Shown: positions 23,716 through 35,154 of the stretch, one piece after another | How the letters are laid out: every line of letters starts with the position of its first letter | How positions within the stretch are numbered: the first letter of the stretch is position 1 | Assembly: GCA_031270705.1 (NCBI GenBank) | Contig: JAISWW010000078.1 | Location: 1 to 40,945 of the forward strand | Source: Deltaproteobacteria bacterium | GTDB taxonomy: Bacteria > Desulfobacterota > Desulfarculia > Adiutricales > Adiutricaceae | Length of the DNA stretch: 40,945 nucleotides | Direction: 5' to 3' | Position numbers and translations under genes: made by a program | Notes under the pieces: generated by a model | Seen by the model: only the letters and a program-made list of their open reading frames with translations | The model's database searches: none | What the model was told of the DNA's origin: nothing

Positions 23716-24375
23716 TTAGGCTTCCGTTAAGCGTCCCTTCTCTAGACAATAACTTTTTTGGGTCATTTTGGCCAAAAAACCCCGATCATGGCTAACAATA
23801 ATCCCAGGTAGCCTTAGTTCCAAAAGAATGGCCTCTAACCTCGCCACCGCCTCCAGATCTAAAAAATTAGTGGGCTCGTCTAAAATCAAAAGCCGGGGAT
23901 TTAAGGCTAAAGCTGTGCCTAAGGCCACTAATTTTTTCTCCCCGCCCGAGAGATCATAGGTCACTCGAGGCCCAAAATCAGATAAACCTAGTTTATCAAG
24001 AACTTCCTGGGCTATCCGGTCGGCTTCTTGGCGGCTAGCTCCCAGGTTTAAAGGGCCAAAAGCCAAGTCATCGGCGACGGTGGGGCAAAATAGTTGATCA
24101 TTCGCGTCTTGGAAGACAAAACCCATTTTCGGCCTTAAAGGCCGAAAATGCTTTTCCTCCAAACAATCTTGGCCTAAAATGGTCACCAGGCCCGCCTGGG
24201 GTTTTAGTAGCCCCATGATGATCTTTAATAAGGTGGTCTTGCCACAACCATTGGGCCCAATGAGCCCCACCAAGCCCTCGGAGCCTAGCTCAAAATCGAC
24301 CCCATTAAGGACAGCCGCTCGGCCTGGGTAAGAGTAAACGAGGCCTTTAAGCTTAATTAAGGACTCAATCGTCAA
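23716..24375 (-). CDS. cbiO: ECF-type ABC transporter ATPase CbiO
   Basis: 219 residues with a complete ABC cassette: Walker A GPNGCGKTT (about 40-48), Q-loop FVFQDANDQLF, signature LSGGEKKL (about 142-149), Walker B LLILDEPTNFLD and the switch His in VSHDRG. The FQDANDQLF form is typical of energy-coupling factor ATPases for cobalt or nickel. It powers uptake together with CbiQ. Start is TTG, overlapping the end of cbiQ by 11 bases; GGGAG lies upstream. The family usually runs 250-280 residues, so the C-terminus is on the short side. Confidence 0.92.
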   Translation of the reverse strand: MTIESLIKLKGLVYSYPGRAAVLNGVDFELGSEGLVGLIGPNGCGKTTLLKIIMGLLKPQAGLVTILGQDCLEEKHFRPLRPKMGFVFQDANDQLFCPTVADDLAFGPLNLGASRQEADRIAQEVLDKLGLSDFGPRVTYDLSGGEKKLVALGTALALNPRLLILDEPTNFLDLEAVARLEAILLELRLPGIIVSHDRGFLAKMTQKSYCLEKGRLTEA

Positions 24376-25114
24376 GGAAAGTCACTCCCAGGCCCAAAGC
24401 CAAAATCAAACAGACGAACCCCAGATCTAATGGTTTGATCTTAAAGTCCCCTCGAAACCAGAAGCGCCCATTATAACCGCGGCAAATCATGGCCGCGTGG
24501 ATTCGCTCGGCTCGGTCTAAGCCGCCCACCAGCATGTAGCCAGCCAAATTAGCGTAGGCCCGCAAAGAACGTAGATCGGATCGGCCCTGAAACCCCCTAA
24601 CCCGCATGGCTTGCCGAAGCCTAGCGTATTGCTGGCCAATAACTGAGATATAACGCGTCATGAGCTGAAAAATGGCCAATAACTTTTCTGGGGCCCCTAA
24701 ACCTTTCGCCCCGGCCAATAACTCAAAAACCGAGCTCGCTCTAGTTATGGCCATGGCTCCTAAAGTGATCGCCAAAGCTTTTAAGGATAATAATATGGAG
24801 AGATCCAAGCCCTCTTGGGTCACGACTAAGGGGCCGAGACGCTGGATGGCCGTGCCGGGCGTGGAAAACGAAAATGGCAAAAGTAGCCATATAAAAAGAA
24901 GGAAGGCGTTAATGGCTAATAATTTCGTTAGATCTTTAAAAAATTGTTTCGGCCCAGAAAGAGCGTAAATAAGGCTTGAGCCCCCTAAGCCAACCAGGGC
25001 GGCTTTGGGGGTTTCGAGCAAGGCCAACAAAAACGACCAAAGAACCAAGATTAAAACCTTAAGGCGAGGATCGCTTCGAGCGAGAAAACTGGCTGAGCGA
25101 GCCGCTCTAGTCAT
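24365..25114 (-). CDS. cbiQ: ECF transporter T component CbiQ
   Basis: 249 residues with about five to six membrane helices and the two coupling-helix Arg-Gly motifs of T components (MRVRGFQGR near 175-185 and MICRGYNGR near 215). SDPRLKVL near the N-terminus is also typical. It links CbiO to a substrate-binding S component such as CbiM, but no CbiM/CbiN/NikM gene is present in the window. It lies 257 bases after tonB with weak ribosome signals. Confidence 0.9.
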   Translation of the reverse strand: MTRAARSASFLARSDPRLKVLILVLWSFLLALLETPKAALVGLGGSSLIYALSGPKQFFKDLTKLLAINAFLLFIWLLLPFSFSTPGTAIQRLGPLVVTQEGLDLSILLSLKALAITLGAMAITRASSVFELLAGAKGLGAPEKLLAIFQLMTRYISVIGQQYARLRQAMRVRGFQGRSDLRSLRAYANLAGYMLVGGLDRAERIHAAMICRGYNGRFWFRGDFKIKPLDLGFVCLILALGLGVTFLDD

Positions 25115-25371: not shown

Positions 25372-26154
25372 CTATTTCATGGAAAACCTTAAGGGCACGG
25401 ATAATGGCATAGTATTAGCGTCAATTTCTGGCGGAATAGGCGGTAACGGCGAGACCCTAGCCAAAAGAGCCACCGCCTCGTCATCCAAGCGTTTGTGCCC
25501 AGAGCTAGTCACCAAGCGCGGAGAGGTGACGGCGCCATTTTTCAGCACAATAAAGCTCACCACGGCCACCCCGGTCTCGCGTCGACTTTGGGAGGCGGGG
25601 GGATATTTTTTGTTTCTCTCTAATTTGACGCGAATTTTGTTTTTATAGGCGGCCAGCGCGTTAGAAGTTCCCCGTCCGGTTCCGCCAGGAGTTCCGCCTG
25701 GGCCAGGGCCCCCTGGCCCAGGCCCAGAAGCGACATTTTCCCCACCACTAGAGACCGGGCCCGCGGGTTTGGGTTTAGGTTTGGGTTTAGTTTTGGGTTT
25801 TTCCACCGGTTTAGGCTTTTCTATGGGAGGCGGCGGCGGCGCTTCTTCCGCCATGGGCGAGAGGCTTTCCACGACCTTAACTTCTTCTTCTGGGACTTCC
25901 GGCTCGGGCTCGGGCGCGGGTTCCGGCTCCGGCTCGGGCTCAATAATCTCTTCCCCACCGCCGCCTTGGCCACCCAAAGGATCATAATCCCCAAACTCCA
26001 TAACCGCCAAAGGGACATACTCCCTGGCCTTATGAGCGTTATCTTGGAATAATCCCCAGACAATCAAAGCGTGAAAAACGAAGCTTAAAGTCAAAGCCTT
26101 TTTTAAGGCCACTGAAGCTAAGGAATCAAACTTATCTAGCGCCGCCACCCTCAA
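25372..26154 (-). CDS. tonB: energy transducer TonB
   Basis: 260 residues. One N-terminal membrane anchor (about 19-37), then a long periplasmic spacer of Glu-Pro and Lys-Pro repeats (about 70-130), a Gly/Pro-rich hinge, and the TonB C-terminal domain from about 165: NKIRVKLERNKKYPPASQSRRETGVAVVSFIV with the family's YP motif, ending VPLRFSMK. It passes proton-motive force to outer-membrane receptors such as the one at 32551. It lies 16 bases after the DUF4198 gene. Confidence 0.95.
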   Translation of the reverse strand: MRVAALDKFDSLASVALKKALTLSFVFHALIVWGLFQDNAHKAREYVPLAVMEFGDYDPLGGQGGGGEEIIEPEPEPEPAPEPEPEVPEEEVKVVESLSPMAEEAPPPPPIEKPKPVEKPKTKPKPKPKPAGPVSSGGENVASGPGPGGPGPGGTPGGTGRGTSNALAAYKNKIRVKLERNKKYPPASQSRRETGVAVVSFIVLKNGAVTSPRLVTSSGHKRLDDEAVALLARVSPLPPIPPEIDANTMPLSVPLRFSMK

Positions 26155-27154: not shown

Positions 27155-27209
27155 AAAAAAAAGTCGCCCCCTTCTAACCAGAGGCCAAAAAGGGACGGTC
27201 TTCATGACC
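27155..27209 (-). promoter_or_regulatory. candidate riboswitch/attenuator element, copy E1 (DUF4198 leader)
   Basis: Minus strand: core GGTCATGAAGACCGTCC (27209-27193), then an imperfect hairpin and eight T (27162-27155). Just upstream is a perfect 8-bp stem (27220-27227 with 27254-27261). GGUC and GACC pair around an AUGAA loop; the same CC is needed by the terminator, so the two folds compete. Copies E2 and E3 before the receptor gene have the same layout. See findings. Confidence 0.6.
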
Positions 27210-27646
27210 TAACATAATCTTTTAGAACCACTAGATCGGGGAGAATCAGATAATTCTAAAAGGGCTTTAAAAACTATGAGGACAAAAAAAAGCCATTCCC
27301 CAATAACCAAAAATGGTTTAGGAAATAGCCTTCTTGACTAACATATTAATTTAAAAACGAGACGCCATTTCTAAAAATAGCGACCACAAAAAATCTTAAG
27401 AAATTTTCCGCGATCCCCAAATGGCTACAAAATTCTAAAACCTTTTATACAGCCATGGGATATTTTTGTCAAGATTTTTTTGCCTTGACGCGTTTATTAA
27501 ATCCAGCCGACCAAAAAAAATAGCCGCGCCGACTTCAGCGTTAAAGCCCCTCTGGCGGAGATCGCCAGCCAATAGCGCGCGAGGTTTATCTATGATATAA
27601 AGAATCTAATAATTAAACCCACTTGGGTTACTTTTTAAGGTTAGAC
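27210..27646. other. divergent intergenic region between DUF4198 and cbiB
   Basis: Holds the minus-strand promoter and leader described separately. On the plus side a hairpin CTGGCG-GAGAT-CGCCAG (about 27551-27567) lies before cbiB. No B12 box of the known cobalamin riboswitch is visible on either strand. Confidence 0.5.
27444..27472 (-). promoter_or_regulatory. promoter of the DUF4198-tonB-cbiQO unit
   Basis: Minus strand: TTGACA (27472-27467), 17 bases, TATAAA (27449-27444), with seven A just upstream. Transcription from about 27437 gives a leader of about 480 bases. Confidence 0.7.
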
Positions 27647-28648
27647 ATGACCGCCCTTATTACCGCTGTGGCCTTTGTGGTCGACTGGCTGTTAGGAGAT
27701 CCTCAGTCTTGGCCTCATCCGGTCAGAATGATTGGCTCTCTCATCCACCGTTTGGAAAAAGACCTCCGCCAGATTCTCAATAAAGACCCTAATCCTTCCG
27801 ACAAGAGGGTTTTCTGGTTTGGGGCCATCCTAACTGTGGTCATTCTTTTGATAGTAGGGTTCTCGGTCTGGCTAATTTTGACCATAGCCTTCAAACTTTC
27901 GATAATTCTTTGGTATTTGATTTGTCTTTATTTTATCTATAGCCTCTTTTGTCTAAGAGATCTCTTAGATCATGTTAGACGGGTGGAATTGGCTTTAGGC
28001 CATGGCGATCTATCCGAGGCGCGGTTGGCTCTTTCTTGGATTGTTGGTCGCGACACGGCTAATTTAAATGAGGAAGCCATTCGTCGAGCCGAAATTGAGA
28101 CTTTGGCGGAAAACTTCTCCGATGGCTTGGTGGCTCCTTTATTCTACTTGGCTTTAGGCGGCCCTATCCTCGCTTGGATCTATAAGGGCGTCAATACCTT
28201 AGACTCCATGGTGGGCTACAAAAACCCCACTTACCTTTTTTTTGGCCGATTTTCAGCTAAACTAGACGATGTTCTAAATTTCCTGCCTTCTAGGTTCGCG
28301 GCCTTGGTTCTCATAGGCGCGACTTATTTGGCCAAAATGGATTATAAAGCCGCTTTAAAAATGTGGCGCGAAGAAGGGCATCTCCACTCCAGCCCCAATT
28401 CCGGCCAAACCGAGGCGGCTGTGGCCGGGGCGGTGGGAACAAAGCTCGGTGGGCCTAATTATTATGGCGGCCAACTGATTGATAAACCCTATATTGGGGC
28501 TTCTAATGGGCCAGCCACTCAAGAAGCCCTTCAAGCTACTGAGCGCTTAGTGGTGACGGGTTCTTTTTTAACTTTGCTCATCGTTATGATAGTTTTGCTA
28601 ATCATTTTTTATATGGCCGGACAAGCTCCTTGGGGCTGGGGTTTTTAA
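27647..28648 (+). CDS. cbiB: adenosylcobinamide-phosphate synthase CbiB
   Basis: 333 residues from the ATG at 27647, which has AAGG six bases before it; an in-frame TTG 24 bases upstream lacks such a site. Membrane protein that joins the aminopropanol linker to adenosylcobyric acid in cobamide synthesis. Family motifs: DWLLGDPQSWPHPVRMIG at the N-terminus, GRDTANLNEEAIRRAEIETLAEN in the middle, and NPNSGQTEA-like SSPNSGQTEAAVAGAVG near residue 250. About four membrane helices. Followed by the cobD-like gene, which makes the linker precursor. Confidence 0.95.
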   Translation: MTALITAVAFVVDWLLGDPQSWPHPVRMIGSLIHRLEKDLRQILNKDPNPSDKRVFWFGAILTVVILLIVGFSVWLILTIAFKLSIILWYLICLYFIYSLFCLRDLLDHVRRVELALGHGDLSEARLALSWIVGRDTANLNEEAIRRAEIETLAENFSDGLVAPLFYLALGGPILAWIYKGVNTLDSMVGYKNPTYLFFGRFSAKLDDVLNFLPSRFAALVLIGATYLAKMDYKAALKMWREEGHLHSSPNSGQTEAAVAGAVGTKLGGPNYYGGQLIDKPYIGASNGPATQEALQATERLVVTGSFLTLLIVMIVLLIIFYMAGQAPWGWGF

Positions 28649-34693: not shown

Positions 34694-34749
34694 AAAAAAT
34701 AAACCGCCCCCCTTAGCGATTTTCGCCAAAGAGGACGGCCTTCATGACC
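34694..34749 (-). promoter_or_regulatory. candidate riboswitch/attenuator element, copy E2 (receptor leader, proximal)
   Basis: Minus strand: core GGTCATGAAGGCCGTCC (34749-34733), a long hairpin closing with GGGGGCGG, then TTTATTTTTT (to 34694). A hairpin with an 11-bp stem and 2-base bulge precedes it (34762-34800). Lies about 60 bases before the receptor start. Confidence 0.6.
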
Positions 34750-34845
34750 TATTAAATCGAGACCATTTGTTAATTTAAAAGCCCATCTAACAAAAATGGT
34801 CAAGATTTTTATTTTATTTTTATCGCTAAATTACTCCTTAAAAAC

Positions 34846-34879
34846 AAAAAAACCGCCCCTAAGGACGGCCTTCATGACC
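34846..34879 (-). promoter_or_regulatory. candidate riboswitch/attenuator element, copy E3 (receptor leader, distal)
   Basis: Minus strand: the same 17-base core as E2 (34879-34863), short terminator stem CCGUCC/GGGCGG and seven T (34852-34846). A 6-bp stem lies upstream (34904-34909 with 34886-34891) and contains a G-U pair that only works in the minus-strand RNA. TATAAT just before the core could alternatively be a -10 box. Confidence 0.6.
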
Positions 34880-34920
34880 ATTATAGATTCCCTCACAAAT
34901 ATTGGAACCCTTTTGCCCCT

Positions 34921-35125
34921 TTAAAATTCATAGCGTAATTTTAACGCTCTAACCGTTACCCACACGGTTATTCAGCTTAGAGACCCAAAATTCATAAATG
35001 GGAAATGGAAAATTAGAACGAATAGATTAATCAGAAGATCGCTAACCTTCAGGTTAGCGGTTCGCTTTTAGGCGAAAACCATACTACCCAAAAAGACTGT
35101 TCTGGCTCCAATTAAATTCTCCCCG
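34921..35125 (-). promoter_or_regulatory. 5' part of the receptor leader with four consecutive hairpins
   Basis: Stems: TTCGC/GCGAA (35061-35076), GCTAACCT/AGGTTAGC (35041-35058), TAACCGT/ACGGTTA (34950-34970), AGCGT/ACGCT (34932-34948). The density of stems in a non-coding leader suggests a folded RNA. It does not show a B12 box. Confidence 0.5.
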
Positions 35126-35154
35126 ATTTTAGGCGGACTTTATTCTAGTGTCAA
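35126..35154 (-). promoter_or_regulatory. promoter of the TonB-dependent receptor gene
   Basis: Minus strand: TTGACA (35154-35149), 17 bases, TAAAAT (35131-35126), with seven A just upstream. Start near 35119 gives a leader of about 480 bases. A weaker TTGACC-17-TTTTAA lies near 34797-34769. Confidence 0.7.

Follow-up and report, generated by a model that had tools for sequence, protein, structure and literature searches.

Ahead of a TonB-dependent receptor gene in a 40,945-nt contig of a Deltaproteobacteria bacterium (the whole of this stretch is hereafter called the window), two closely spaced copies of one short core, each running into a terminator, raise the question of what kind of regulator they form and what it responds to. 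A preliminary description, made from the sequence alone, had read these copies (E3 followed by E2, with a further copy E1) as a candidate undescribed riboswitch or attenuator.

Tandem copies in the two leaders of the window

The core, GGTCATGAAGGCCGTCC, occurs exactly on the minus strand at 34863-34879 (E3) and 34733-34749 (E2), which bears out the tandem arrangement with an identical 17-base core before the receptor, and it returns as E1 at 27193-27209 of the same strand with 1 mismatch. The chance expectation for this 17-mer in the window is 0.08, and three copies were found in 0 of 100 shuffles. While all three of the copies named previously are real, a fourth had been missed: E0 (AGTCAAGAAGGCT, 27339-27327), which lies 130 nt upstream of E1, has diverged and is recovered by a looser core pattern at 27322-27338. 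Tandem pairs (E3 with E2, E0 with E1) head both leaders of the window. A terminator-like stem and then a U tract follow each copy, as had been described, with the second half of the core forming the 5' arm of the stem. Run with filters off, the family covariance model gives 44-57 bits for the four copies against 14 for the next-best site in the window. The features of the two leaders and of the genes behind them are as follows.

35126..35154, minus strand: sigma-70-like promoter of the E3-E2 leader, TTGACA-17-TAAAAT, 11 of 12, a consensus match only
35040..35059, minus strand: upstream hairpin of the E3 leader, CGCUAACC-UGAA-GGUUAGCG, with a GAA loop; possible P1, a putative role
34846..34887, minus strand: copy E3, with putative antiterminator hairpin GGUC-AUGAA-GGCC (34879-34867) overlapping the terminator GAAGGCCGUCC-UUAG-GGGCGGUUUUU and its U tract; 44 bits with model R2
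34695..34757, minus strand: copy E2, GGUC-AUGAA-GGCC (34749-34737) overlapping a long terminator; 56.7 bits
32551..34662, minus strand: TonB-dependent receptor (PF00593, PF07715), downstream of E3-E2
27444..27472, minus strand: promoter-like site of the E0-E1 leader, TTGACA-17-TATAAA, read in the sequence
27284..27347, minus strand: copy E0, hairpin AGUC-AAGAA-GGCU (27339-27327), whose first pair is A-U in place of G-C, overlapping the terminator GGCUAUUUCC..GGGAAUGGCUUUUUUUU; 47.5 bits
27219..27262, minus strand: upstream hairpin CUUUUAGAA..UUCUAAAAG with internal UUCUCCCCGAUCUAG
27155..27217, minus strand: copy E1, hairpin GGUC-AUGAA-GACC (27209-27197); 46.3 bits
26171..26953, minus strand: DUF4198 (NikK-type periplasmic protein; PF10670, E=4.5e-32), first gene behind E0-E1
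25372..26154, minus strand: TonB (PF03544), second gene of the E0-E1 operon
24365..25114, minus strand: CbiQ/NikQ permease (PF02361), E0-E1 operon
23716..24375, minus strand: CbiO/NikO-type ABC ATPase (PF00005), E0-E1 operon

Each pair sits between its promoter-like site and the genes it precedes, E3 and E2 before the receptor (for which all NCBIfam matches are below cut-offs) and E0 and E1 before the DUF4198-TonB-CbiQ-CbiO operon. The E0-E1 site was not listed by the promoter scan, since the scan demands a T at the last position. The products of nikK and nikL are predicted periplasmic components of nickel transporters (PMC545781, PMC2667541).

The upstream hairpins that had been assigned to E3 and E2 can be read in the sequence, yet they lack conservation and fall outside the conserved unit; that of E2 overlaps a possible promoter. 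The hairpin at 27219..27262 is common to other leaders of DUF4198/TonB operons (L062/L102, L042:7391, L105, L106:2410). A conserved block, UUCUCCCCRAYCU, precedes the copy, inside a variable hairpin, in several such leaders (window 27262-27219, L062:1476-1489, L042:7364-7377, L105 and the L106:2410 leader), and TTCTCCCCGATTTT, at 35117-35130 of the plus strand, is nearly the reverse complement of this block and overlaps the -10 of the E3 promoter. Pairing of CUCCCC with the 3' arm of the terminator was considered and rejected as not general.

Competing helices and the invariant loop

Models were built from 14 copies (R1) and from 73 copies (R2). The conserved unit is a hairpin of 13 nt, GGYY-AHGAA-RRYC; its 3' strand doubles as the base of the intrinsic terminator, an overlap present in nearly all copies. 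In alignment A2 of 73 copies, 98.0% of the terminator-stem cells are paired, with 165 cells changed on both sides. For the small hairpin (columns 9, 10, 13 and 14 with 23, 22, 21 and 20), 99.3% of cells are paired over the 73 copies and six are double changes (A-U for G-C four times, U-A for C-G twice), whereas sliding the pairing partner as a control gives 24-68%. Since A2 was fitted to the terminator and not to the small hairpin, the covariation of the latter does not stem from the fitting; the search itself, however, was guided by the core sequence.

Each of two mutually exclusive helices covaries, as expected of an attenuator, with E1 as a partial exception. The competition between the folds had been proposed at the outset, and folding predictions agree for E0, E2 and E3, but not for E1, which has two mismatches at its terminator base and whose minimum-energy fold is predicted to retain both hairpins. 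When E0, E2 and E3 are folded as growing transcripts, the predicted order is the small hairpin, then the terminator as soon as its 3' arm exists.

The loop, A-H-G-A-A, is nearly invariant over the 73 copies, with A in 70/73, then U, C or A, G in 73/73, A in 71/73 and A in 73/73. The last loop A pairs in the terminator. Neither fold pairs the central G and A, so their conservation must have a cause other than base pairing. Kissing loops of the guanidine-II type were rejected as AAGAA loops are unable to kiss.

The size of the minimal unit is set by the arrays. In locus L103 a CO-dehydrogenase gene is preceded by four units at intervals of 51-53 nt, so the minimal unit is about 50 nt, and such close repetition leaves little room for a classical aptamer. 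Other arrays hold three to four units (L100), three (L060) or two (L090).

Small hairpins with 4-bp stems and five-base loops were also counted over the 130 nt that precede the first core, for every 3' loop triplet (64), the triplet not having been chosen beforehand. Loops ending in GAA occur in 17/61 leaders, the next triplet in 3, and GAA loops in the controls in 2/53 and 3/61. The loop of these upstream NNGAA hairpins is constant while the stems vary between leaders, the spacing to the core hairpin varies widely (21-108 nt), and in over half of the leaders no clear hairpin of this kind is seen upstream. The enrichment of a second NNGAA-loop hairpin points to a dual-hairpin site bound in trans, rather than to a riboswitch.

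Distribution and the genes downstream

The preliminary description had proposed a covariance-model search of related genomes, with confinement to the one genome or to mobile repeats as the result that would count against it. Copies with covariation were found well beyond the genome of the window. R1 has matches in 29/63 genomes of the class at E<=0.01, and across the phylum in 8/395 genomes at E<=0.001, all within three families: that of the window (f1), a second of the same class (f5) and one outside the class (f41). In the order of f41, R2 matches 5/194 genomes, every one in f41, and the best match in 114 kb of unrelated loci reaches 17 bits. The genomes surveyed are draft MAGs, the E-values are rough, and the model search is biased towards copies retaining the terminator. 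A core-pattern scan of genome contigs gave 13 stretches, of which five (L036, L038, L041, L043 and L045) were set aside as coding or stray matches and the others are from Desulfobacterota, with two records being the same contigs as loci from a same-genus genome. The host bacteria are presumably of termite-gut origin, to judge from isolate names.

The genes downstream were tabulated by hand from the search results, one entry per leader, for the 59 leaders with enough downstream sequence. Metal-uptake genes, methyltransferase-led operons or Ni-CO-dehydrogenase follow 52/59.

TonB receptors: 18 leaders
DUF4198/NikK: 13 leaders
NikL: 1 leader
TonB or ExbB: 5 leaders, including L042:7391 (upstream of TonB-CbiQ-CbiO in L145)
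CbiM/NikM: 1 leader
NikA-like or FecB-like binding proteins: 5 leaders
FecCD: 1 leader
Methyltransferase-led operons: 4 leaders, two of which run on into ExbBD-receptor-DUF4198 or NikBC
Ni-CO-dehydrogenase: 4 leaders (TIGR01702 in L103)
Seven other leaders: IS630 transposases 3, ABC exporter-like 1, AraC regulator 1, FmdE 1, no nearby gene 1

The element is therefore not confined to mobile repeats, as only the three leaders of the 59 listed above precede IS630 transposases. In f41, NikK or NikM lies downstream of all five copies, one of which adjoins hypF-hypD-hypE-like genes (identified by eye). Nickel best unites the members of the regulon, judged from NikK, NikL, NikA and the CO-dehydrogenase. 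Cobalt fits some members (the CbiM name, a BchI-like gene in L097), the FecCD, FecB-type and TonB receptor genes could serve other metals, and cobalt could not be separated from nickel on this basis.

Several features of these loci are of interest in themselves. The Ni-CO-dehydrogenase genes at L103:943-3201, L100:436-2400, L072:2-1387 and L069:2159-3052 stand behind arrays of up to four units, and their products have an unusual N-terminal extension of ~130-160 residues rich in A/E/K/L; AAGAA is the prevailing loop in these arrays, a feature of possible relevance. Of four copies that combine an AAGAA or ACGAA loop with a strong terminator (L076:1214-1267, L150:1038-1090, L153:181-233, L091:250-306), three directly precede IS630-type transposase genes, where the element may have been captured or may shield the transposase from read-through; L153, which stops at the contig end, is almost the same as L150. 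In several operons (L028/L155, L077, L094, L143, L152) a SAM-dependent methyltransferase comes first, ahead of ExbBD-receptor-DUF4198 or Nik/Opp-type permeases, and could act on a metallophore.

Comparison with other metal regulators of these genomes was also made. The NikR regulon of delta-proteobacteria covers the same targets, nikKMLQO and related genes (PMC545781), but NikR is a DNA-binding repressor with no copy in the 63 genomes of the class, while the element here is RNA. Whether the element replaces NikR in f41 was an uninformative comparison, NikR being rare across the whole order (3/194). The NiCo (czcD) riboswitch RF02683 shares the metal theme and transcriptional control, but it has no match at the copies, is found above cut-off in 0/63 class genomes and is far larger than the present element. 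Cobalamin riboswitches (RF00174) likewise precede TonB receptors and cobalt uptake genes, and their B12 box loosely resembles the core. They are found in 62/63 class genomes but at none of the element copies tested. A cobalamin variant was accordingly rejected, since some leaders are only ~50 nt long and the true elements lie elsewhere, and corrinoid supply appears to be handled separately. The genome of the window (G000) itself has eleven cobalamin riboswitches, all of them outside the window despite the CobD/CbiB gene there (27623-28648). More generally, no Rfam family matches at or above the gathering cut-off in the window and 20 related loci, and otherwise only chance-level matches appeared, in agreement with the earlier remark that the core could not be matched to a family known to its author.

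What may read the hairpin

Comparison of the copies shows overlapping, covarying and mutually exclusive predicted helices with an invariant loop, placed between promoter and metal genes. In our estimation the copies probably make up a family of transcription-attenuation RNAs through which Desulfobacterota control the acquisition of nickel and probably of cobalt, the hairpin serving as an antiterminator bound by a trans-acting factor. We infer the whole of its expression logic as follows. By default, the terminator would form and the uptake genes would be silent. When metal is scarce, a trans factor, most likely an RNA-binding protein and perhaps a dimer engaging two hairpins, would hold the small hairpin by gripping the invariant G-A of the loop, such that the terminator would be unable to close and polymerase would read on, with tandem units tightening the off state. 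Since a bound hairpin means expression, and uptake is wanted at scarcity, the binder is more likely the apo-form of a protein than the metal. The Ni-CO-dehydrogenase under the same element fits poorly with a simple scarcity switch, and the genes beside the copies include no recurrent RNA-binding regulator.

The original proposal finds support as far as an undescribed tandem cis-regulatory element is concerned, and its riboswitch part stays a candidate reading. A metalloriboswitch, in which Ni2+, Co2+ or a complex of the metal would be bound by the RNA itself, at its NNGAA hairpin(s), and would favour the terminator, seems rather unlikely. It would supply the sensor that is missing from the class, which has nickel/cobalt uptake genes under the element, no NikR and no NiCo riboswitch above cut-off, and both the invariant loop purines and the tandem units with terminators are typical of or consistent with such RNAs. 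However, only 13 nt are conserved within a repeat of ~50 nt, the distance between the hairpins is very variable (21-108 nt), and a ligand that keeps the small hairpin in place would turn the genes ON when metal is present, opposite to what uptake calls for. In ANTAR antitermination, a protein dimer binds two hexaloop hairpins (A1, G4), of which the second overlaps the terminator (PMC3369931). The architecture here resembles that of the eut, nas and ami leaders where an upstream NNGAA hairpin is present (17/61 leaders): two small hairpins have a common loop, the second excludes an intrinsic terminator and read-through would be under the control of a factor. An ANTAR protein as the binder is nevertheless improbable. 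Such proteins are present in f5 and in 4/5 f41 genomes, but the domain (PF03861) is found in 0/37 genomes of the window's family, which has the motif most often, and is absent from genome G565 as well; the loop is a pentaloop, AHGAA, with its closing pair backed by covariation, in place of a hexanucleotide with A1 and G4; and the element fronts nickel/cobalt genes.

Intrinsic terminators are common and GGYC-N5-GRCC resembles the inverted repeat of an operator, yet the chance sharing of a 5' arm among ordinary terminators, or a DNA operator, is a very improbable account of the position between promoter and gene, the invariant loop, the covariation of the small hairpin, the loss of matches outside three families (8/395 phylum genomes) and the lack of any copy above 17 bits in the 114 kb of unrelated loci. 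A leader-peptide attenuator is suggested by the E3 and E2 cores, which read ATG AAG GCC GTC and could start a short frame, but this is refuted by the loop variants: the T of the ATG is C or A in 32/73 copies (loops ACGAA and AAGAA), the ATG is missing in E0, and no ribosome-binding site was seen upstream, which leaves it next to no probability.

We thus return to antitermination by a bound hairpin. Nickel uptake in delta-proteobacteria has previously been attributed to the DNA-binding repressor NikR (PMC545781), and yet the class of the window is without NikR and rich in nickel/cobalt uptake genes, many of which the RNA element precedes. It seems somewhat likely that nickel (cobalt) homeostasis in these NikR-less bacteria involves a new system of antitermination by RNA, in which metal would be sensed through NNGAA-loop hairpins, by an undescribed class of RNA-binding regulator or by the RNA itself, and which would control the whole acquisition regulon, including the Ni-CO-dehydrogenase. 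The element defines a regulon and gives a handle for annotating nickel/cobalt genes, including TonB receptors lacking an assigned substrate, and it poses the testable question of what reads the NNGAA hairpin.
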